A DNA stretch of 64,000 bases from Candidatus Bathyarchaeota archaeon (GTDB taxonomy: Archaea > Thermoproteota > Bathyarchaeia > Bathyarchaeales > Bathycorpusculaceae): the NCBI GenBank assembly GCA_026014685.1, contig JAOZHW010000008.1:124001-188000 (forward strand). Reading direction: 5' to 3'. The stretch's first letter is position 1. Each line of letters begins with the position of its first letter. A model generated the notes under the pieces. That model was given only the letters and a program-made list of their open reading frames with translations. It was not told where the DNA came from and made no database searches. Both the position numbers and the translations under genes were made by a program. This document shows positions 50 through 58,973 of this stretch, piece after piece.

Positions 50-214
50 CTACCTATGTGGTGGCGGGTGCTGGTTTAAACGTGAGTGGCTGTTCAGATG
101 CAACAACAAGAAGAAGCGACGCCAAGTTTGCTGCTCTGCGGTGACTAGACCCCCATTATTTAGTGGCGCATACGAATCCGTATCCGCAAATACGGGAATC
201 ACGCGACGTCTCAC
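50..214 (-). CDS. Micro-ORF of the dispersed repeat element, copy 1 (54 aa)
   Basis: A GTG start lies directly after the conserved polypurine tract and about 22 bp from the centre of the TATA box of repeat copy 1. The peptide begins MRRRVIPVFADTDSYA. The same stretch in copy 2 reads LRRRVTPAGPDTETYA, so the two share an N-terminus in frame with mostly conservative changes, and then diverge completely. The frame ends 31 bp before the next start codon at 18. It could be a small protein, a leader peptide, or coding only by coincidence within a structured promoter element. No family is recognised. Confidence 0.3.
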   Translation of the reverse strand: MRRRVIPVFADTDSYAPLNNGGLVTAEQQTWRRFFLLLHLNSHSRLNQHPPPHR

Positions 215-240
215 AGTGTACCTCCCCTCCCTTATATAAA
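167..240 (-). repeat. Dispersed promoter-like element, copy 1
   Basis: On the minus strand the element starts with a TATA box fused to a polypurine tract (TTTATATAAGGGAGGGG then AGGT). It continues with GAGACGTCGCGTGA and ends in a short inverted repeat, ATACG-N4-CGTAT, with loop AATC on the plus strand. Near-identical copies occur at 27039-27112 and 58899-58973, and the first 21 bp recur at 49668-49688. This copy begins 36 bp beyond the end of hemD and points toward the gene at the left edge. A second overlapping hairpin (CCGTAT/ATACGG) is specific to this copy. Confidence 0.8.
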
Positions 241-26897: not shown

Positions 26898-27086
26898 CTA
26901 CAAAAAAGGTTGCTTCAACGGTTCAGGATTGCCATTGAATTGAGGCCTGGTTGTGGCGACTTCCACAAGCACTTCATTTTCGCGAAGCTTGAGGCGGAGG
27001 CCAGCTGCGATTTTTTCTCTAGTCCGCTTATATAAATCTGCATACGTTTCCGTATCCGGACCTGCTGGAGTCACGCGACGTCTCAA
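26898..27086 (-). CDS. Micro-ORF of the dispersed repeat element, copy 2 (62 aa)
   Basis: TTG at 27086 corresponds in position to the GTG start in copy 1. The peptide starts LRRRVTPAGPDTETYA and continues with a basic, helical segment (DLYKRTREKIAAGLRLKLRENEVLVEV). An upstream ATG (27116) is also in frame, but it lies in the TATA box. Of the copies, this one has the longest and most protein-like frame. No family is recognised. It would be expressed from the TATA box of the repeat. Confidence 0.4.
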   Translation of the reverse strand: MRRRVTPAGPDTETYADLYKRTREKIAAGLRLKLRENEVLVEVATTRPQFNGNPEPLKQPFL

Positions 27087-27112
27087 AGCGGACCTCCCCT
27101 CCCTTATATAAA
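27039..27112 (-). repeat. Dispersed promoter-like element, copy 2
   Basis: This shares the TATA/polypurine core, the GAGACGTCGCGTGA block and the ATACG-N4-CGTAT stem with copies 1 and 3; the loop here is TTTC on the plus strand. A second TTTATATAAG occurs at 27027-27036 within the following micro-ORF. The region between 26736 and 27262 otherwise holds only this element, the shared 19-mer and the rqcH promoter. Confidence 0.8.
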
Positions 27113-33685: not shown

Positions 33686-33836
33686 GGCACTATCCCCCGA
33701 ATCTAGGGTCTAACGAGTTTGTGGTGTTATAAACCTTTACAGGACAAGACGCTTGCACGGTTTTGTAGAACACTTATGCTTAGCCACTAAGAAAGCCCTT
33801 TTATACCATACCGTGATGCTCTATTGAGGGATCAAG

Positions 33837-34148
33837 ATGAAGTTTTTAGTCATACAAAAAGTAAAACGCGACATCCCACTTGACCGTTGGTCAAAGCTTT
33901 TACCTTTGCAATTCAAGTACTTTGAAAAACTGGAAAAAGAAAAAACATTAGAACTCTACTACCACCTCATCGGACAACAAGGCAGCATGTTAATCGTCAA
34001 CGTTGAATCCGACGAGAAACTCAGCCGAGTCATCGGACAAGACCCAATGTTCTTCGAATGCGAACGCGAAATCTACCCCCTAACCACCCGCCAAACCCAT
34101 GAGAAACAAATCCGAGAACTATTCGGCACACCACCCAAAGGCGCATAG
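33837..34148 (+). CDS. Muconolactone-isomerase-like ferredoxin-fold protein
   Basis: The 103-residue protein (MKFLVIQKVKRDIPLDRWSKLL ... LYYHLIGQQGSMLIVNVESDEKLSRVIGQDPMFFECEREIYPLTT) fits the dimeric alpha/beta-barrel, muconolactone-isomerase-like family. The catalytic residues of true muconolactone isomerase cannot be assigned, so the substrate is open. It is followed after 1 bp by a SAM methyltransferase, with which it is very probably cotranscribed. Confidence 0.7.
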   Translation: MKFLVIQKVKRDIPLDRWSKLLPLQFKYFEKLEKEKTLELYYHLIGQQGSMLIVNVESDEKLSRVIGQDPMFFECEREIYPLTTRQTHEKQIRELFGTPPKGA

Positions 34149-34149
34149 T

Positions 34150-34707
34150 ATGGCTTGTCATGGCGGATTTAGCTTGGATGAACAAACTCGACGTTCATGG
34201 TACAACCCCGAAGCGGTACTCGACGGGCTTAAAAAGGGGATGACTTTTGTGGATGTGGGCTGCGGTGAAGGCTTCTTCAGCATTTTGGCAGCCAAAAAAG
34301 TCGGCTCAGAGGGCAAAGTTTACGCTGTAGACATAGACCCCACAAGGGTGGCGAAACTGCAAAACAAAGCCGCTATCGAGAGATTAACTAACATCGAAGC
34401 TACCGTGGGTCGCGCGGAGGACGCGGTTTTCTGTCGGGGATGCGTAGACTTCGTGCTCTACAGCATGGACCTACACGACTTTGACGACCCCCAAAAAGTC
34501 CTCGAAAACGCCCACGCCATGCTGAAGCCTTCAGGGGTGCTGGTGGATTTGGATTGGAAGAAACAGCCGATGGAGTTCGGTCCGCCTGAACGCATACGAT
34601 TCAGCGAAGCAAGGGTGGCGGAGATGCTTATGCTGGCAGATTTCCGCGTGCAGTCCACAACGGAAGCAGGCCCCTACCATTACCTCATAGTGGCAAAACC
34701 CAAGTAG
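34150..34707 (+). CDS. SAM-dependent methyltransferase
   Basis: A class I methyltransferase of 185 residues with motif I VDVGCGEGFFSILAAKKVG, the acidic ribose-binding VYAVDIDPTRVAKLQ, and CVDFVLYSMDLHDFDDPQKVL. It belongs to the broad UbiE/COQ5-like group. The N-terminus MACHGGFSLDEQTRRSWYNPEAVL is typical of small archaeal methyltransferases of unknown substrate. The ATG at 34150 lies 1 bp after the stop of the upstream isomerase-like gene. Confidence 0.85.
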   Translation: MACHGGFSLDEQTRRSWYNPEAVLDGLKKGMTFVDVGCGEGFFSILAAKKVGSEGKVYAVDIDPTRVAKLQNKAAIERLTNIEATVGRAEDAVFCRGCVDFVLYSMDLHDFDDPQKVLENAHAMLKPSGVLVDLDWKKQPMEFGPPERIRFSEARVAEMLMLADFRVQSTTEAGPYHYLIVAKPK

Positions 34708-34710
34708 CCT

Positions 34711-35334
34711 CTACTCTGCGTTTGCGTACAGTTCGAGCAGGTCACGTTTGAACCATTCAGGTTGATCCTGATACGCCGAGTGTGCCGCGCCGTTGTAGAC
34801 GAGCATTTTCGCGTTAGGCAACGTATCAGCTAAGGTGCGCATTTCTTCGCCTGAAATGATGCTGTCATGTGTACCCCACACTATACGGACGGGAAACTTG
34901 AAACCCTTGTAAGCTGCCACAAGCTCGTCGTTGTCAAACGCGTGGGCTGGGGCGATTAGGAAGAGACCTTTGACGGGATGTGTTGCGGCGTAGTTGAGGG
35001 CTATGTAGCCGCCTAGGCTGGCGCCGACTACGACTGGGGCTTGGTTGCCGAAGACCGCTTTAATTGCTTCTGCTGCGAAGGTTATGTTGGTTTTGAGGTC
35101 GCGGGTTTTGGGTTGGCAGTTGCTTTTTAAGCCGTAAGGCATGTCCAAGGCAAGGAAAGGCACTTTTTTCTCCACAAGATGCTCGGTGACGCCTATGCGT
35201 TCCCAGATGTGGATGGTGTAGGATAAGCCGTGGAAAAACACCACCGGAACACCCTCTGATTTGTGGATGAGGGCTTGGCATTTGCAGCCGCCAACATTAA
35301 GCGTTTTTTCTTCCAACGTAGCTTCACTGTCCAC
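34711..35334 (-). CDS. Alpha/beta hydrolase
   Basis: The 207-residue protein has the oxyanion-hole motif VVFFHGLSYTIHIWERIG, the nucleophile elbow VVVGASLGGYIAL, the acid in RIVWGTHDSII and the histidine in VYNGAAHSAYQDQPEWF, completing a Ser-Asp-His triad. GTG is the start. It resembles small esterase or lipase-type hydrolases; no specific substrate is indicated. It is convergent with the methyltransferase gene. Confidence 0.88.
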   Translation of the reverse strand: MDSEATLEEKTLNVGGCKCQALIHKSEGVPVVFFHGLSYTIHIWERIGVTEHLVEKKVPFLALDMPYGLKSNCQPKTRDLKTNITFAAEAIKAVFGNQAPVVVGASLGGYIALNYAATHPVKGLFLIAPAHAFDNDELVAAYKGFKFPVRIVWGTHDSIISGEEMRTLADTLPNAKMLVYNGAAHSAYQDQPEWFKRDLLELYANAE

Positions 35335-35408
35335 TGCTAACTACGTAGAGGTTTATAATATTTCGGCGGAATTAGAAAAACATAATAGCCATCCCACGCC
35401 ACTGTGTT

Positions 35409-35897
35409 GTGGTGAATTTTTTGACTGTTAAAGTTGGCGATAAAGCCCCAGACTTCACTTTACCCAGCCAGCTGGGTGACAACGTAACCCTAAGCGAGTA
35501 CTTTGGCAAAAAGAACATAGTGCTTTACTTCTACCCCAAAGACGAAACGCCTGGCTGCATCAAAGAAGCCTGCAGCTTCCGCGACAGCTACCAACAGCTG
35601 ACGGATTTAGGCGCCGAAGTCTTAGGCGTATCTGGGCAGAGTGTGGAGTCGCATAAGTCGTTTGCTACGCATTATGGGTTGCCGTTTATTTTGCTGGCAG
35701 ATGAAGGCAACAAAGTGCGTGAACTCTACGATGTACCCAAAAGCATGGGCGTAATGCCTGGTCGAGTCACCTACATCATCGACAAAAAAGGCGTCGTCCG
35801 CCACATCTTCAACTCCCAAACCCAAGCCCAACGGCACGTGGAAGAAGCCAAACAAACCCTTGAAATGATAGACAAAGAAGAAAAAGCCACCGTCTAA
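35409..35897 (+). CDS. bcp: PrxQ/Bcp-type thiol peroxidase
   Basis: The enzyme reduces hydroperoxides. Residues VKVGDKAPDFTLPSQLGDNVTLSEYFGKKNIVLYFYPKDETPGCIKEACSFRD contain the peroxidatic and resolving cysteines in the C-x4-C spacing of alpha2-type PrxQ. GTG 35409 and 35412 and TTG 35421 are all possible starts, with TTG giving the most typical N-terminus. The next gene, a CysRS-like enzyme, begins 9 bp downstream on the same strand. Confidence 0.93.
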   Translation: MVNFLTVKVGDKAPDFTLPSQLGDNVTLSEYFGKKNIVLYFYPKDETPGCIKEACSFRDSYQQLTDLGAEVLGVSGQSVESHKSFATHYGLPFILLADEGNKVRELYDVPKSMGVMPGRVTYIIDKKGVVRHIFNSQTQAQRHVEEAKQTLEMIDKEEKATV

Positions 35898-35906
35898 CTG
35901 GTCGCC

Positions 35907-37142
35907 ATGCTGCGCCTCCACAACACTCTTACCCAAAAAAAGGAGCCCTTCCAACCCGCCCAAGCCCCAAACGTCAAAATGTTCACCTGCGGCCCCTCCA
36001 CCTACCAACGCGCCCACATCGGCAACTACCGCACGTTCCTCTTCGAAGACATCTTGCAGCGGTACTTGGAGTATTTGGGTTACAGGGTTACGCGGGCGAT
36101 GGCGCTGACTGATGTGGAGGATAAGGCGATTTTGCAGGCTAAAAAGGAGGGGCTCTCGGTTGAGGAGTTGTCTGGGCGGAATGAGGCGGTTTTCTTTGGG
36201 GACTTCGAGTTGTTGGGTATCAAAAAACCCGATTATTCAGTGAGAGCGTCGGATGCTGTTGACCAAGCCGCAGGTTTAATCGCTAAACTCCTCGAATCAG
36301 GTTACGCCTACAGGCACAAATATTTGGGTACAGAAAACATCTATTTTCGTCCCCTAAAATTCGATGGCTTCGGCAAACTATCCCATCTGGATATGTCTAA
36401 GTGGCCTAAGAAGCCGCGGCGATTCCACAAAGACACCTATCCTGGCACGCCTTGGAACATGGGAGACTTCATCATCTGGCATGGCTGCGCTTTGGAGGGC
36501 GTCTGCTACGAAACCCCCATCGGCAACGGTCGCCCCGCATGGAACATCCAAGACGCCGCAATTGCCACCAAAACCCTTGGCTTCACAATCGACATCGCAT
36601 GTGGAGGCATAGACAACTTGGTCCGCCACCACGACTACACCTTGGCGATTGCCGAGTCGGTTTCGGGAACGCAGTTCGCCCGTTTCTGGCTGCACGGCGG
36701 CCACCTCTACGTGAACGGGAAAAAGATGTCTAAGAGCCTCGGCAACGTCTACTACACGACCGATGTGCTGGCCAAGGGTTTTAGTGGAGTACAACTGCGG
36801 TTTTTTTTAATCTACGCGCCGTACCGTGAGCGACTTAATTTCACTTTTGAAAGGCTGCTGGATGTGAGCCGAAAACTCGATGCCGTCCGCGGCATGGTTG
36901 CGGATTTGCAGAACACCAAGCCCGCGAGTCAAAGCAGAGGCGACCCCAAAATGGGTGCAGAATTAGCTGCTGACTTCGAAAATCACATGAACGACGACTT
37001 AAACGTGAAGGGCGCCTTCGACGGCTTCAGCCAAAACTTAGCATTGATCCACCAGAAACGCTACACCTTGGCTGCGGGGGAATTAAAAAATGTGTTAGAC
37101 GGCTTACGTCGAATCGACACTGTGCTGCGGTGCTTATTCTAG
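35907..37142 (+). CDS. Divergent cysteinyl-tRNA-synthetase-like enzyme
   Basis: The class I catalytic core is clear: C28 in FTCGPSTYQRAHIGN (HIGH-type motif 37-40) and KMSKS at 273-277. However, two of the four zinc ligands of bacterial CysRS are replaced. The C209 position reads D216 (WNIQD instead of WHIEC) and the E238 position reads T245 (HHDYT instead of HHENE). At 411 residues it is shorter than usual, with a DALR-like helical tail but little beyond it. It could be a genuine but diverged CysRS or a paralogue that ligates cysteine to another acceptor, as MshC does. It is coupled to the peroxiredoxin gene. Confidence 0.8.
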   Translation: MLRLHNTLTQKKEPFQPAQAPNVKMFTCGPSTYQRAHIGNYRTFLFEDILQRYLEYLGYRVTRAMALTDVEDKAILQAKKEGLSVEELSGRNEAVFFGDFELLGIKKPDYSVRASDAVDQAAGLIAKLLESGYAYRHKYLGTENIYFRPLKFDGFGKLSHLDMSKWPKKPRRFHKDTYPGTPWNMGDFIIWHGCALEGVCYETPIGNGRPAWNIQDAAIATKTLGFTIDIACGGIDNLVRHHDYTLAIAESVSGTQFARFWLHGGHLYVNGKKMSKSLGNVYYTTDVLAKGFSGVQLRFFLIYAPYRERLNFTFERLLDVSRKLDAVRGMVADLQNTKPASQSRGDPKMGAELAADFENHMNDDLNVKGAFDGFSQNLALIHQKRYTLAAGELKNVLDGLRRIDTVLRCLF

Positions 37143-37382
37143 TTCGCCGACGAGTTTAACGCGGCTAAAGTTTTCGTCGCGGTGCGGCGCCATCTCTAAA
37201 TCTTCGGTGAGGTCTTTGCCTGCGCTGTGCATGCCCATGTGTTCGCCTTCCATCCAGAAGCTGCTGTCCGACACGTCGTAGACTTTGCCTTGGTAGGCTA
37301 TCCAGGCGGGTTTACCGTTTTTGCCGTCGTTTGTTATGAGTTCTTCTTGTGTGACTTTTTTTGTTTGAGCCAAAAATTTCAC
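37134..37382 (-). CDS. Cytochrome b5-like heme-binding domain protein
   Basis: An 82-residue single-domain protein with KVYDVSDSSFWMEGEHMGMHSAGKDLTEDLEMAPH, the archaeal and bacterial variant of the b5 fold in which the conserved histidine after the strand-helix turn and the downstream APH histidine could ligate heme. The start is GTG. Its last 9 bp overlap the convergent CysRS-like gene. The redox partner is unknown. Confidence 0.85.
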   Translation of the reverse strand: MKFLAQTKKVTQEELITNDGKNGKPAWIAYQGKVYDVSDSSFWMEGEHMGMHSAGKDLTEDLEMAPHRDENFSRVKLVGELE

Positions 37383-37436
37383 CTATAATCTCTATTGGGT
37401 TTGAAGGGGGCAATAAAGGTTTAGATGCTTGCCTGT

Positions 37437-38510
37437 TTAGTGGGCGATGGTTTGGGTTTTGTAGTTTGCGTTTATGTAGATGCTTCCGATGCCGGTGACG
37501 CGGTTGTTGATTTCGATGTTGCTTGCTGCGGGGTAGTTGGCGGATTGCAGGGGGGATTTGCTGCCTGTAAAGTTGTTGAGGTTGGTGTTTATGTCGCCAA
37601 ACGCGTTTGTGTCGGAGGTGATTTTTGCGCCTACGCCGCCGTCGATGGTTAAGCCTACGTTTATGGAGCCCGTGACGGTTTCGGCTTCTACCTCCAAGTT
37701 GCCCTGTAGGGTTCTGGTTTGGGTTATATCCATGGTAACTGAACCCGTGGTGGACTGCAAGTTTAGGCTGCAGTTGCCGACGACGTTGGTTTCAGCCATG
37801 CGGTAATTCACTGCACCCGTCGTAGTGGAAAGGGATAGGTTTCCTGCGACGGTGACGTTGCTCTGCAGGTGTGCTTCCACTTCGCCCGTCGTGGCGCGCA
37901 GGGTTAGGCTTTGGATGGTTGTGGGTTTGTCGGCGGAGAAACTAACTTGCCCCGTGGTCGAAGTCACATTCAAATTCAAGTTTAGGGCGGGGTCCACGTA
38001 GATTTGGCAAACCACATTCGCAGTTCCCGACAAAGCATCCTCCACCGACATCTTCACATCCACGAATAACTCGTTGCCTGCGGTCTGGTTTGTAAATGTG
38101 ACGCTTAGGGGGTTTTCTCCCCCGCTGATGCCGCGTGAACCGTTGCCTTGGATGAAGATGCCGATGTTGTTGTCGCCGATTTTGCTGGTGAAAACCGTTA
38201 CGCGTCCGACGTCGGTGTCGAAGTTGAGGTTGAGGGTTTTTATGCCTTCGGTGCTGTCGGCAAAGGAGCTGCTGGTGCTCCACGTCGCGAATGGCGCAAC
38301 AAACACCGCTGCAATAACCACTGCAATCACCAAAATCGCAACCAAAGCCACCGCGCCAATCACGAAGGGGTCTTTGCTTAGGGGCGGCAGAGGCTTAGAA
38401 GGGGCGGGGGCATCTGGTGGGGGGTTGTAGGTGATGGCGGGGGTGCCGCATTTGTGACAGAAACGCGCATCCTCCACTAGTTGGGTTCCACATCGACGAC
38501 AATAAGGCAA
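37437..38510 (-). CDS. Zinc-ribbon membrane protein with DUF4097-like beta-helix domain
   Basis: The 357-residue protein begins with a cytoplasmic zinc ribbon (YCRRCGTQLVEDARFCHKCG), a Pro-rich linker and one transmembrane helix (about 48-73). The exported part contains repeating TTG-motifs (VTSTTGQVSFSA, LRATTGEVEAHL, LSTTTGAVNYRM, LQSTTGSVTMDI), the pattern of DUF4097-type right-handed beta-helices. TTG is the start codon. A sensor or adhesive role is possible; no function is established by sequence. Confidence 0.8.
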   Translation of the reverse strand: MPYCRRCGTQLVEDARFCHKCGTPAITYNPPPDAPAPSKPLPPLSKDPFVIGAVALVAILVIAVVIAAVFVAPFATWSTSSSFADSTEGIKTLNLNFDTDVGRVTVFTSKIGDNNIGIFIQGNGSRGISGGENPLSVTFTNQTAGNELFVDVKMSVEDALSGTANVVCQIYVDPALNLNLNVTSTTGQVSFSADKPTTIQSLTLRATTGEVEAHLQSNVTVAGNLSLSTTTGAVNYRMAETNVVGNCSLNLQSTTGSVTMDITQTRTLQGNLEVEAETVTGSINVGLTIDGGVGAKITSDTNAFGDINTNLNNFTGSKSPLQSANYPAASNIEINNRVTGIGSIYINANYKTQTIAH

Positions 38511-38550
38511 CTATTTCTCCTCAGAGAAGGGGTTATGGTTGAGACGTAAT

Positions 38551-38775
38551 TTAAGCCTTACCAAACGGCATAGCTTCACATCGCTTGCGAAATAGCAGCC
38601 AGCCTATTGAGACAGAAATGGCAACCAAAACGGCACAGACAACTACCATTAGAACAGGGAACGAATCTGTTGTGGGAATGGCTACTGTGAAGGCGACTGT
38701 TTTAGGCAGAGCTTCAACTCCAGCTAAACTGGTTGCGTATATGACTAGTGTGTGGTTGCCGTTTGAGCAGACTAA
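38551..38775 (-). pseudogene. C-terminal remnant of a surface protein
   Basis: On the minus strand a frame of 74 residues reads SNGNHTLVIYATSLAGVEAL then a linker, a hydrophobic helix (VLMVVVCAVLVAISVSIGWLLF), and a basic tail ending at TAA. GNHTLVIYA is the end of an Ig-like repeat seen in archaeal surface proteins. A stop codon (38776-38778) closes the frame upstream and no start codon with a ribosome binding site is seen, so this is a truncated fragment. Confidence 0.6.
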
Positions 38776-38802
38776 TTAGTAGCCCACCGGCTTTTCCCGT
38801 TT

Positions 38803-39531
38803 CTATTCAGCCACCACAGTACTGTTTTGTGTTGGTTTTTTTCGCAGAGCAAAAACTGCAATCAAAGGCACAGCTAGCAATAGCGGAATAAGTGCAAAGG
38901 TAGGTAGTTCGGGTACGGAGGGGGAAGGTGTGGTTTGGGGGATGGTTATGGTTTGGGTGTTGCTCCACTCGCTTGTTTGACCTTCAAAAATCCATGGGAA
39001 CATCAGCAGAGGGTCTGTTTGGCTACCATTTTGGATTCGGTGAACGGCGCCTATCAGCGCCTGAACTTGAAAATCAACCTGACCACCGCTCTGGTTTATG
39101 TTATCCCAGAACGGGAATTCATTATCATCAAGGGAATAAGACACGACGGTATATTCAGAGCCCGACTGAGTTAAAAATCCCCTGCTAGGACTATATATTT
39201 GAATCCACTCTTTTGCATAAGATCCTTTTGTTCGGATGTTTAAGTAGAAATCGATTATCTGTCCGTTGCTTTGATATTTAGTGAAGGGCTGATTTCTAAT
39301 GCTGACCTCAATGGTTCTGTTTTGCACATGATAACCTGAGTGTTCCACTGTTGCTCCTGTGTAAGGGTCCATTGAATATGTTGTTGGCACATCGTAAGAT
39401 GCATCTACGAACTTGAGAGTGAATTGTGGAACAGCCGGTTTAGATATTGACTGAGCAGAGGCAGATTCAACCAGCATCAAACCCGAAGCAAATAAGACGA
39501 TTATGAGGGCTAAAGTGGAGGTTTTTTTCAT
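38803..39531 (-). CDS. Secreted protein with CTERM-like sorting tail
   Basis: The 242-residue protein has a signal peptide (LALIIVLFASGLMLVESASAQS), an extracellular beta-rich domain, and a C-terminus SVPELPTFALIPLLLAVPLIAVFALRKK. This tripartite tail (short Pro-Glu motif, hydrophobic helix, basic end) resembles PEF-CTERM-type signals processed by archaeosortases. No archaeosortase gene is seen in the window. The function of the extracellular domain is unknown. Confidence 0.75.
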   Translation of the reverse strand: MKKTSTLALIIVLFASGLMLVESASAQSISKPAVPQFTLKFVDASYDVPTTYSMDPYTGATVEHSGYHVQNRTIEVSIRNQPFTKYQSNGQIIDFYLNIRTKGSYAKEWIQIYSPSRGFLTQSGSEYTVVSYSLDDNEFPFWDNINQSGGQVDFQVQALIGAVHRIQNGSQTDPLLMFPWIFEGQTSEWSNTQTITIPQTTPSPSVPELPTFALIPLLLAVPLIAVFALRKKPTQNSTVVAE

Positions 39532-39696
39532 CTAAACCACAAATAGGCTTGAGGCGGGTTTAGCTTTAAGGCTTCTTGTACAGGTTTCTTGACTACGGGT
39601 TGTCAAGGTTTCTGGACTAAACCTGTCGAAGCGTGTGCGGTACTGTTTTTATATTCGGAGTTGCCCATTAATTTTGGTAGAGTTTTAGGAAGTTTG

Positions 39697-40374
39697 ATGG
39701 GTGTGACTGTTTTTATTGACCGCGTCGATGCAGGCAAACGCTTAGCCGCAGCGCTCAAAAAAGAATTTGCCAGCAGAAACGGGGTGGTTTTGGCGATTCC
39801 CCGCGGCGGCGTAGTCGTCGGCTACCAAATCGCGGAATCGCTGGATATGCCGCTGGACGTGATTGTTCCCCGCAAGTTGGGTGCACCGTACAATCCCGAG
39901 TTGGCGATTGGTGCAGTTGCGGAGGATGGTTCAGTGGTGCTGGATAGCAACCTCGTCGCCTACCTCGATGTCAACCGAGAATATATTGCTGAGGAGAGTG
40001 AGCGGCAGAGGCGGGAGATTGATCGGCGGCAGAGTGTGTACCGTCAGGGCATGGAGCCTCGCGAGATAGCGGGCAAAGATGTTATCGTAGTGGACGACGG
40101 CATTGCCACTGGCTCTACGATGAAGGCGGCTTTGGCTTCGGTGAAAAACCAAGGAGCCAAAAGCGTAACCGTCGCTATACCCGTGGGACCGCCCTCCACG
40201 ATTGAAGAACTAAAGACAAGGGCTGACCGCGTCGTGTGCCTCTACACGCCCGAGTACTTCCAAGCCATCGGGGAATTCTACCAAGACTTCTCTCAGACCA
40301 CAGATGAAGAAGTTATTGACCTCCTTAAGAAATGCAGACAGAACGCCGCCAAACAAGGAGCCACCGTGCCATGA
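39697..40374 (+). CDS. Phosphoribosyltransferase
   Basis: A 225-residue type I phosphoribosyltransferase with the PRPP-binding motif DVIVVDDGIATGSTMKAAL and the upstream AIPRGGVVVGYQIAESLDMPLDVIVPRKLG. The subgroup is often annotated as a ComF- or GPRT-like protein of unknown base specificity. The ATG at 39697 starts at the conserved VFIDRVDAGKRLA. An ATGA overlap couples it to the following hydrolase, a pairing also seen, sometimes as a fusion, in bacteria. Confidence 0.88.
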   Translation: MGVTVFIDRVDAGKRLAAALKKEFASRNGVVLAIPRGGVVVGYQIAESLDMPLDVIVPRKLGAPYNPELAIGAVAEDGSVVLDSNLVAYLDVNREYIAEESERQRREIDRRQSVYRQGMEPREIAGKDVIVVDDGIATGSTMKAALASVKNQGAKSVTVAIPVGPPSTIEELKTRADRVVCLYTPEYFQAIGEFYQDFSQTTDEEVIDLLKKCRQNAAKQGATVP

Positions 40375-41024
40375 CCCACACCCAGATGGAACTCAAAATT
40401 CCCGTCGGCAACGCCCAAGTTGTCGAAGGCAATCTCTATTTGCCCTCTGAAGTCCATGGATTGGTGGTGTTTGTGCATGGCAGCGGAAGCAGCCGCTTTA
40501 GCCCCCGCAACCAGTTCGTTGCCAAAAACTTCAACAAAGCCGCCTTGGGTACGTTGCTGTTTGATTTGTTGACGCCAGAGGAGGAAGAAGAGGACGAGTT
40601 AACGGCGCATTACCGCTTCAACATAGATTTGCTCTCTGAACGGTTGGTGGGCGTTACCGAGTGGCTTAGAAAGGATGCTTCTACACGGAACCTGAAACTG
40701 GGCTATTTCGGAGCAAGCACAGGCGCGGCTGCGGCACTGATTGCGGCGGCTCGGATGCCTGAGGCGGTAGCTGCAGTGGTTTCGCGCGGTGGACGCCCCG
40801 ACTTAGCAGACAAATATCTGCCGCTGGTGAAGGCGCCGACGTTACTTTTGGTGGGCGGCTGGGATGAGCAGGTCATAGAACTAAACCGACAAGCACAGAG
40901 CCAAATGCGCAACCAAAACAAACTAGTCATCATCCCAGAAGCCACTCACCTCTTTGAGGAACCTGGCAAGCTCGAAGAAGTCGCCAAACACTCGACGGAG
41001 TGGTTTCTGCGTTTTCTGGTTTGA
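40371..41024 (+). CDS. Dienelactone-hydrolase-family alpha/beta hydrolase
   Basis: The 217-residue protein has LVVFVHGSGSSRFSPRN (oxyanion hole), the nucleophile elbow LGYFGASTGAAAAL, an acid in LLVGGWDEQVIELN and the histidine in IPEATHLFEEPG. It starts in an ATGA overlap with the phosphoribosyltransferase gene. The substrate is unknown; the coupled gene suggests a shared pathway or stress role. Confidence 0.87.
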   Translation: MTHTQMELKIPVGNAQVVEGNLYLPSEVHGLVVFVHGSGSSRFSPRNQFVAKNFNKAALGTLLFDLLTPEEEEEDELTAHYRFNIDLLSERLVGVTEWLRKDASTRNLKLGYFGASTGAAAALIAAARMPEAVAAVVSRGGRPDLADKYLPLVKAPTLLLVGGWDEQVIELNRQAQSQMRNQNKLVIIPEATHLFEEPGKLEEVAKHSTEWFLRFLV

Positions 41025-41054
41025 AAAGAAAGAAAAAGTTGTGGGTTTCGTCGT

Positions 41055-41390
41055 TTATTGTGGTGGGGGTGGCGGGGGAGAGTTGCTGCCTGGCATGTTA
41101 TTGTTGACTGTGACGTTGACGTTTACGTTGTTTTTCTTTTCTTTCTTGCCGAACAGCATCATTAGTATGGTGAAGATGAGCCATGCGATAAAGCCGTAGA
41201 TGACTCCGTTGAAGACTGCGATGATGGCGGTGACTGCGTCGACTTGGCCTCCGACGAGGTAGCCTGCGGCTGCTTCAGTGCCTGGCAGTACCGCTTGGTA
41301 GATGGCTTTGCCTGGGGGTATATCCACGTTGCCCAAAGTCAAAACGACGAGTATAACGAACACTAATAGAAATACTATTGCGCCCTTCAT
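41055..41390 (-). CDS. Small membrane protein with Asn/Pro-rich tail
   Basis: The 111-residue protein has an N-terminal hydrophobic helix and a second hydrophobic region (AIIAVFNGVIYGFIAWLIFTILMMLFG). A basic Asn-rich stretch follows, then SPPPPPPQ. It could be cytoplasm-facing at its C-terminus. No family is recognised. It is convergent with the hydrolase gene. Confidence 0.65.
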   Translation of the reverse strand: MKGAIVFLLVFVILVVLTLGNVDIPPGKAIYQAVLPGTEAAAGYLVGGQVDAVTAIIAVFNGVIYGFIAWLIFTILMMLFGKKEKKNNVNVNVTVNNNMPGSNSPPPPPPQ

Positions 41391-41504
41391 ACTCCATGCC
41401 CTAAATAGCGCTTATTCAGTTACTGAGCATATAAGCTTTATTTCAAACCGCCAAACCCATACATGCCCAAAACAAAGAAAAAGAGAAAAAAGCCGCAGAA
41501 ACGG

Positions 41505-42344
41505 CTAAAGTTTAATGTTAACGGTTTTAGAGAAGTAGCCAAACGGCATCTTGACGCGGTCACCGTACGCTCGCTTTAGGATGTCAGTTAACTCGCTGTT
41601 TTCGTTGAAGCGGTACTTGTAGGTGCCCTGTGTGCTTTTGATTTCGGCCTCGAACTCGCGTGGACCATCGTTTTGGTGTTGCCCTTTTAGGTGGACTTTG
41701 ATCTCGCTTATGGTGTTGTTTAGGAGGGCGAAGTTGCCTGGTGTTTCGTTAAGAATCGCCTCTGGGGGCATAGTGAGGTATCGGTTGGTGAAGCCAAAGG
41801 TGTTTCTAAGTTGATCTGCCCACTGCCCAAAGAAGCCTTTGCCTTCCGCTTTGGCTTGGTCACGCGCTTGCTGAGCCGCCGCAGAGATCATCTCGGAGGT
41901 TAACTGCGCAAAAATCATGCGTTGGTTGGTCACAACCGCTGCGAACGCGTCGTAACGACCCAATGACTTCATGCGTCGGAAGGGGACGACGCCGATGGTG
42001 ACTTCGCCGCTTTGTTGCATCGGTGCCGCTGTAGATGCGGGTTGGGGCTGAATTGGAGTTTGCTGATATACGGGTGGAGCTTGGTACACCGGTGAAGGTT
42101 GTACCTGTCGGGGTGGAGCCTGATAGGCAGGGGGCTTGGCGCCTGCGATTGGCAAAGGTGCGGAGGTGACGTAGCGGGGGTCGGGCGGTGAGTAATAGTT
42201 GAGACGTTCTCGCTTCGGCGTAGACGAGGGTTTGTTTGGGGGTTGCGACTGGTTTTGGGTTGGTTGGGTTCGGGCGGTGCCGCAGTTGCCGCAGAACTTC
42301 GCGGTTGGACTGACTTGGGATCCACAACTCTCACAGTAAGGCAT
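41505..42344 (-). CDS. Zinc-ribbon protein with PH-like C-terminal domain
   Basis: It starts at the second in-frame ATG (MPYCESCG). An N-terminal zinc ribbon (YCESCGSQVSPTAKFCGNCG) is followed by a Pro/Gln-rich disordered linker of about 90 residues. The C-terminal domain begins EVTIGVVPFRRMKSLGRYDAFAAVVTNQRMIFAQL. The wording VVTNQRMIFA resembles PH-like or bPH domains that respond to membranes or partner proteins. No transmembrane helix is seen. Function unknown. Confidence 0.75.
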   Translation of the reverse strand: MPYCESCGSQVSPTAKFCGNCGTARTQPTQNQSQPPNKPSSTPKRERLNYYSPPDPRYVTSAPLPIAGAKPPAYQAPPRQVQPSPVYQAPPVYQQTPIQPQPASTAAPMQQSGEVTIGVVPFRRMKSLGRYDAFAAVVTNQRMIFAQLTSEMISAAAQQARDQAKAEGKGFFGQWADQLRNTFGFTNRYLTMPPEAILNETPGNFALLNNTISEIKVHLKGQHQNDGPREFEAEIKSTQGTYKYRFNENSELTDILKRAYGDRVKMPFGYFSKTVNIKL

Positions 42345-42442
42345 AAACAATCATCGAATCTACTGAGCGGTTTAACTTAATAAATTTAGGGCTGACATGT
42401 CGCTGTATATAAAATTGAAGAAAAAAGGCAGATTTTTGTGCC

Positions 42443-43396
42443 TTACACTATGCTGGATAGTACTTGTAGTATGGTGTTTGAGGTCACTGCGAATCCGAGT
42501 CCGTCTGAGCCGCTGACGATGGCGGTTGTGATGCCGATGACTTCCCCATTGTAGGTTAACAAGGGGCCGCCTGAGTTGCCTGAGTTGATTGGTGCGCTGG
42601 TCTGGATTAAGCCGTTTATGTCGTAGCTGCCTCCTGTGTCGCCGCTGACGGTTATGGTGCGGTCTAATGCGCTTACTATGCCTGAGGTCATGGTGCCTGC
42701 TAAACCGTATGGGCTACCGATGGCTACTACAGCGTCGCCTACGCGGACTTGGCTGCTGCTGGCGATTGTCAGTGGCTGGTATTGACTGGTGGGAGCGTTG
42801 GTGGATAGGACTGCAAGGTCGTTTGAGGGGTCGGTGCCTAAGACGGTGGCGGTGTAGCTGTTGCCGTCGGCGAAGGTGACAGTGATGCTAGATGCGTCTT
42901 CGATGACGTGGTTGTTTGTGACTATGACCATTTTGCCGTTGTATTGGGTGACGAAGCCTGAGCCTTGCGCTGTCGAGGTGACGGTGCTTTGTCTACCCCA
43001 CGGACTCGCATAGGTGTAGGTTATCTTGCACTCTATCGTAACGACGGAGTCTTTGACTGCGGCGTAGAGCGCTGAGAGCGAGGTTTGGGTGTTGGAGACG
43101 GCTGTGGTGCCGACGCTGCTTTGGACGGTTGCGGCTAAGCTGGACAGCTGGTTTTGCAGAGCGGTGACTTCTGCGGTGAGGTTGTAGACGCTATAGAGAG
43201 CTGCGGCGCTGACTAGGCTGGTAACTAAGAGGACGGCAATGAGGGCTGCGGTTAGACCGTGGCGGGAGCTGGTTTTGGTGTGATGAGCTGGCGGGGTCTG
43301 GATGGTTGGAGTGGGTTCTGGGGGTGGCGGAGTTGGTGGGGCTTCGAATGCGGGTGGGTTTTCGGTTTGGGTTTCTGTTTGTGGGTTTGCTTCCAA
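42443..43396 (-). CDS. Membrane-anchored HtrA-like serine protease without PDZ domain
   Basis: The TTG at 43396 was chosen because GGGAGGTG lies just upstream; the upstream ATG overlaps that ribosome binding site. A Pro-rich cytoplasmic segment, one transmembrane helix (about 48-71) and a short coiled coil precede a trypsin-like domain. The triad is H163 in VTNNHVIED, D193 in DPSNDLAVL and S275 in NSGNSGGPL. The protein ends right after the protease domain, so no PDZ domain is present. It likely degrades or processes extracytoplasmic proteins. Confidence 0.9.
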   Translation of the reverse strand: MEANPQTETQTENPPAFEAPPTPPPPEPTPTIQTPPAHHTKTSSRHGLTAALIAVLLVTSLVSAAALYSVYNLTAEVTALQNQLSSLAATVQSSVGTTAVSNTQTSLSALYAAVKDSVVTIECKITYTYASPWGRQSTVTSTAQGSGFVTQYNGKMVIVTNNHVIEDASSITVTFADGNSYTATVLGTDPSNDLAVLSTNAPTSQYQPLTIASSSQVRVGDAVVAIGSPYGLAGTMTSGIVSALDRTITVSGDTGGSYDINGLIQTSAPINSGNSGGPLLTYNGEVIGITTAIVSGSDGLGFAVTSNTILQVLSSIV

Positions 43397-43644
43397 ATTT
43401 ACACCTCCCAACACGTGGGTTCTATCAAAAGCGTCTTGGGCGATTTGTAATTAAGGGATTTTCCAACATTGAACCCAAAACATACCCAAATCTCAACATT
43501 GGCCTAAAACTCACGTTGAGTAATAGCATTTTTTCTTCAAAACCGTTTCTTTTACACCTCGTGAGAAACAAAATTTTTTATGTAAAGGGGCATTAACACA
43601 TTTATTTCCCGTTTACTATTCTTAGGTGTCGAGGCGAACCTTTC

Positions 43645-49667: not shown

Positions 49668-49688
49668 TTTATATAAGGGAGGGGAGGT
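49668..49688 (+). repeat. Core of the dispersed promoter-like element, fourth occurrence
   Basis: This 21-bp core (TATA box plus polypurine tract) is identical to that of the three longer copies; downstream sequence diverges except for a short AGG.GGCGTG resemblance. It points toward the GH5 gene, whose start is 230 bp downstream. The 361-bp gap from 49557 to 49917 holds this core and a 63-codon open frame (49606-49797) that runs through it but shows no protein family. Confidence 0.75.
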
Positions 49689-49917
49689 AGCGCAAGAGAG
49701 GCGGCGTGCCGTTAGTTGGGCAGTTAGGCTTGCGTTTCCATGCTTGCTCCAACCAATCCTACACCTCTTTTTCGGTAAGAGGGGCTGTCTTTGTTGAGGC
49801 TTGTTAACTCTACTTTGCAGAGCACTCATCCAACTTGACAAGATAGCGTATTGCTGTTTTCAAAAAACAATAAAATAGATCGTGCGTATGCAGGGTTGAA
49901 TTCAGGAAGAGAGAGAA

Positions 49918-58875: not shown

Positions 58876-58898
58876 CCTCAAAAAACCCCTTATTAGGG

Positions 58899-58973
58899 TG
58901 CATACGCTTCCGTATCCGCAAACGACTGGAATCACGCGACGTCTCAGCGTGTACCTCCCCTCCCTTATATAAA
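58899..58973 (-). repeat. Dispersed promoter-like element, copy 3
   Basis: The core, the GAGACGTCGCGTGA block and the ATACG-N4-CGTAT stem (loop CTTC on the plus strand) are all present. One extra base relative to copies 1 and 2 shifts the micro-ORF frame after RRRVIPVV, and the start position carries CTG. The copy points into the 3' end of the ferric-reductase-like gene. The remaining gap from 58974 to 59155 is AT-rich and contains the promoter of the zinc-ribbon gene. Confidence 0.8.

Follow-up and report, generated by a model that had tools for sequence, protein, structure and literature searches.

A short element, found in four copies in the window (the 64,000-nt stretch of Candidatus Bathyarchaeota DNA analysed here; contig JAOZHW010000008.1, positions 124,001 to 188,000), probably represents a lineage-restricted mosaic family of dispersed intergenic repeats that are homogenised by recombination and also serve as its substrate; we put the probability of this reading at about 0.6. 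According to this reading, a nearly invariant promoter-shaped head, comprising a TATA-like box, GGGAGGGGAGGT, six free bases and GAGACGTCGCGTG, would often be joined to one of several inverted-repeat middles, followed by a second TATA-like box and one of two tails. The family has a high copy number, intergenic position, random orientation, a modular build and a species-specific consensus; moreover, its copies coincide with breaks in synteny, and a single reciprocal exchange between two copies was resolved.

Build and distribution of the family

The four copies stand where the preliminary description had placed them, with coordinates agreeing to within 1 bp. The window contains exactly four instances of the 21-bp head TATATAAGGGAGGGGAGGT, whereas shuffled sequence would be expected to yield 0.01. 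Copy 1, on the minus strand, comprises the head, a TATA-like box plus purine tract (TTTATATAAGGGAGGGGAGGT), at 220-240, six variable bases (ACACTG) at 214-219, the leader TGAGACGTCGCGTGA at 199-213, the palindrome GCGGATACG-GATT-CGTATGC at 168-187, and a decayed second TATA-like box (TAAATAATGGGGG) with a tail of type T1 (TCTAGTCACCGCAGAGCAG) at 131-166. Copy 2, also on the minus strand, contains the head (27092-27112), the variable bases CCGCTT (27086-27091), the leader (27071-27085), the palindrome GGATACGGAAACGTATGC (27040-27057) and a second TATA-like box (27024-27036), whose TTTATATAAG core repeats that of the head exactly and in direct orientation at a distance of 76 bp. Its tail of type T2 (CTAGAGAAAAAATCGCAGCTGG...TTGTGGAAGTCGCCACAACC; 26945-27023) extends the copy to about 26945. 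Copy 3, again on the minus strand, consists of the head (58953-58973), the variable bases ACACGC (58947-58952), the leader (58932-58946), the palindrome GGATACGGAAGCGTATGC (58900-58917) and, after the palindrome, a decayed second TATA-like box (58886-58899). The stretch of about 75 bp that these copies had been said to share is real, but the units are longer, with the second TATA-like box and a tail following the palindrome. Copy 4, on the plus strand, had been described as an exact recurrence of the first 21 bp alone. The head does recur exactly (49668-49688), but the match continues at 49689-49708, where the six variable bases, here AGCGCA, are followed by AGAGAGGCGGCGTG, a variant form of the leader that reads TGAGACGTCGCGTG in the other three copies. 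The neighbours of the copies are unrelated, as had been stated, and include HemD, NFACT/Rqc2-type, B12/radical-SAM and GH5-type cellulase-fold proteins and a ferric-reductase-like protein with a weak match below its cut-off.

About 80 copies of TTTAWATAAGGGAGGGGAGGT were found in the window genome (G000; 2.3 Mb in 23 contigs). A genome-wide pattern search allowing up to 2 mismatches gave 84 matches, whereas the reversed-pattern control gave 0, which bears out the prediction that many copies would exist. Read on its own strand, the unit runs from TTTAWATAAGGGAGGGGAGGT through six free bases to TGAGACGTCGCGTG, and nearly all TTTAWATAAGGGAGGGGAGGT copies run on into six variable bases and then GAGACGTCGCGTG. 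The leader was present in most of the 88 head-like sites inspected, and the palindrome GNATACG-N4-CGTATNC together with a second TATA-like box in about 38. In the sister genome (G018, which is about 85% identical at the nucleotide level), the middle that follows the standard head is of at least three inverted-repeat types, and CTTTAAATAAGGGGG with one of two tails comes next. The module TTGCGGAAAACGCCACAACC sits inside one tail type (window 26949-26968). It is also dispersed independently of the head, at over 15 places in the sister genome. Additionally, one sister-genome locus (L175, C20:24298) contains a perfect 32-bp palindrome, ACCTCCCCTCCCTTATATAAGGGAGGGGAGGT, formed by two heads back to back with one common TATA.

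In the window genome, as far as it was searched, all 10 palindromes lay within elements. In the sister genome, six palindromes accompanied a standard head and seven adjoined variant heads, second boxes or disrupted copies. A role of the palindrome as a regulon operator elsewhere was rejected because, in the sequence searched, it is present only within elements.

An exact form of the head pattern was detected in 8 of 61 genomes; these all belong to one genus, and the 29 searched genomes that fall outside it all lacked the pattern. The relatives found by the pattern search, in which the unit recurs, are Candidatus Bathyarchaeota and carry species-specific head versions, for example, GGGGAGGGAGGT. 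No exact match to the element was found in viral contigs, and a viral origin was rejected on this ground.

Relation to genes and the promoter-shaped head

Heads were intergenic in 20 of 22 cases against 13.5% expected. The gene on the downstream side was co-oriented with the element 45 times and opposed 43 times; orientation is thus random relative to genes, so the copies are not promoters of their neighbours, and this explanation was rejected as a class. In addition, TATA boxes upstream of genes in the window genome are preceded by AA at -4/-3 and lead into AT-rich DNA, whereas the element TATA is preceded by T-rich sequence and a C, is followed by the G-rich GGGAGGGGAGG and lacks the AA context. 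The AT-rich, BRE-like surroundings of an archaeal promoter, as found at genes of this genome, are therefore missing from the element. A fusion of promoter and ribosome-binding site, proposed in the preliminary description, did not hold up against the random orientation and this deviating context; moreover, the interval from a TATA box to its transcription start cannot hold a ribosome-binding site. It is likewise highly improbable that the element is a conserved promoter for a regulon of ordinary genes: some head-only copies do sit directly in front of a gene at a position common to both species (L084/L157, L063/L155 and L099/L167), but the 3' ends of genes are faced as often as their starts, and the context differs from that of gene promoters in this genome.

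In the part of the window genome that was searched, 21 of 21 TTTAWATAAGG copies have a GAG 24-33 bases past the box. A GAG also occurs at similar spacing from second boxes of type T1, and the TATA-to-GAG spacing is preserved in relatives even though the sequence between differs. As a sequence feature, this spacing is compatible with a putative transcription start at the GAG, about 28 bases past the box. Each copy might accordingly be read as a stand-alone transcription unit of a small noncoding RNA family, with the head and the second box acting as tandem promoters. The intergenic position and random orientation would suit RNA genes, and the repeated entry of a transposon into the TATA (see below) looks as if the box were occupied. 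Several observations make this reading rather doubtful. The search of Rfam with the element matched no known RNA family, and the presumed promoter is better conserved than the presumed RNA. Unlike gene promoters here, the head lacks the upstream AA and is G-rich where promoters melt. Moreover, six of seven copies folded no better than shuffled sequence (z-scores from -1.1 to 0.4), which lends no support to a stable structured RNA; the remaining one, a type-B copy, reached z = -3.

Synteny breakpoints and turnover of copies

Breakpoints were analysed in 464 kb of the window genome against 800 kb of one sister genome, which gave 29 usable block ends; the sequence sources are fragmented metagenome-assembled genomes with genes from a simple ORF caller, and part of each genome was compared. 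A head of the window genome lay within 400 bp of 9 of the 29 break ends, although such distances cover an expected 4.1% of the sequence (P = 2e-6). When heads or modules of either genome were counted, 13 of 29 break ends had one within 400 bp compared with 0 of 35 spacers within blocks (P = 5e-6), and about 90 kb of collinear blocks contained no head of either genome. The remaining 16 of 29 break ends had no nearby copy, which means that the copies are not the sole route of rearrangement.

When element loci were aligned to the sister genome, the match was typically one-sided and ended at the head. Mappable element spacers were interrupted in 33 of 35 cases, compared with 15 of 28 non-element spacers in the same element-centred loci by a coarse criterion. 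Because those non-element spacers were partly interrupted through the adjoining element, the separate control within blocks was made. In the window, copies 1 and 2 mark the two limits of a 26.5-kb collinear block (273-26826), the copies at 49668 and 58973 terminate collinear blocks, and copy 2 coincides with a 5.7-kb difference in the sister genome, so that all four copies lie at a break or an indel. The region 33787-43588 of the window also shows several synteny breaks, none with a head nearby.

One rearrangement involves two loci of the window genome (L089 and L106), which are both products of an exchange between sister-genome sites C18:80 kb and C17:109 kb, with the element or an element variant on all four junctions of this reciprocal exchange. 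Three further junction swaps were resolved (L010+L015/L153, L087+L095/L141 and L101/L162+L170). Assembly joins at repeats could account for some of the breaks, though the exact shared stretches, about 40-75 bp in most copies, are short for that. Separately, a 5340-bp contig of the window genome (C20, L108) was considered as a transposon, which was rejected because its interior matches ordinary sister-genome chromosome. The ends of this contig carry the same element in inverted orientation, upstream sequence included, which might mean that the segment can invert or that the assembly broke at a longer repeat.

Among 12 corresponding pairs of the two genomes, identity was 96% in the head, 91% in the leader, 64% upstream, 72% in the middle, 77% downstream and 33% in the six bases, and the six-base spacer was no more similar in corresponding pairs than in random pairs (P = 0.91). 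Judged from these alignments, a constant head with a divergent spacer fits a process in which one head is overwritten by that of another family member. Purifying selection, which is not separated from homogenisation here, could add to the constancy of the head and leaves the spacer unexplained.

Alternatively, the head might be the DNA site of a dedicated architectural or site-specific recombination protein, with the enzyme driving rearrangement at the copies. The invariant 21 bp and 14 bp around a free six-base spacer resemble a bipartite protein site, the breakpoints are located in the shared head, and the palindrome is found only within the element. Nevertheless, this explanation is distinctly unlikely: the arms beside the spacer are not inverted repeats, no enzyme was identified, the Y1 (RAYT-type) transposase being absent from both genomes, and the spacer differs at corresponding sites, contrary to the overlap requirement of tyrosine recombinases. 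The six bases were hence rejected as such an overlap. Under the preferred reading of a recombining mosaic family, recombination between copies would move them and keep them alike, ectopic recombination between copies would reshuffle the chromosome, and the head would persist through a bound protein, perhaps a TBP-containing, recombination or nucleoid factor.

Mobility and comparison with known repeat systems

The unit had been suggested to be mobile or selected as a whole. It is indeed dispersed and conserved as a whole, but autonomous mobility was not borne out, and turnover by recombination at the copies appears instead. The three long window copies have no terminal inverted repeats, just TATA direct repeats and short internal inverted repeats. 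The single collinear presence/absence case (L064) showed no clear target duplication. A search for a transposase associated with the element found none, and the Y1 transposase (PF01797) is absent from the window genome, the sister genome and a further genome (G012); a REP/RAYT system was rejected on account of this absence.

A separate family, a MITE with terminal inverted repeats, repeatedly enters the TATA of heads in the sister genome. Its ends are CAGTAGATCAAA, it generates TTAA/ATAA duplications, and it is mostly 171-184 or 273-278 bp long; it was not found in the searched sequence of the window genome. In a loose search of the sister genome, 13 of 51 MITE ends ran into a TATA plus purine head, compared with 0.8% of background ATAA/TTAA/TTAT sites. 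One clean insertion lies at L240:1133-1409 (C3:41133-41409), arranged as TTTAAATAA-[MITE]-ATAAGGGAGGGGAGGT, and further sister-genome sites are C5:33083-33359, C23:53560-53832 and C17:199188-199361. At two loci (L094 and L098), the window genome has the head without the MITE.

The BIME/REP sequences of enterobacteria are short and intergenic, occur in tens to hundreds of copies and combine palindromic modules variously. The element is likewise short, intergenic and multicopy, and forms a mosaic of palindromic modules in intergenic spacers, with several middles and two tails on one head. However, its head is a TATA-plus-purine box, whereas REP is a palindrome with a GTAG/GGAG foot; in addition, the element is archaeal, in genomes without the Y1 transposase. 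Correia and ERIC-type elements are dispersed intergenic units with promoter-like sequences and hairpins, but they are bounded by terminal inverted repeats or are palindromic overall, neither of which applies to the element. Prokaryotic MITEs, including those of Sulfolobus, are small, multicopy, noncoding and mainly intergenic (PMC10969869). The element is also multicopy and mainly intergenic, but no terminal inverted repeats or target duplications were found in it, whereas the separate sister-genome MITE has both. Since one defining feature each of MITEs and REPs was tested and found lacking, membership in either class is not claimed. In bacterial repeat-flanked inversions of >10 kb in E. coli and P. 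aeruginosa, repeat copies lie at both ends (PMC5372343). Here, too, a repeat copy is retained at either end of the rearranged segments, although the repeat measures about 40-190 bp and occurs in an archaeon.

Tentatively, and with rather low confidence, we suggest that the promoter-shaped site, bound by the initiation machinery or a dedicated factor, may be a genome-wide dock for both recombination and the TATA-targeting MITE. If so, chromosome reshuffling in this archaeal genus would be directed to about 80 marked spacers. Bacteria provide the best-known examples of dispersed repeats with an influence on gene order; the element would add an archaeal one that is abundant and has an unusual promoter-like core. 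The host belongs to an important uncultured sediment lineage, and the element makes breakpoint reuse and the targeting of TATA boxes by transposons testable on a concrete archaeal case.
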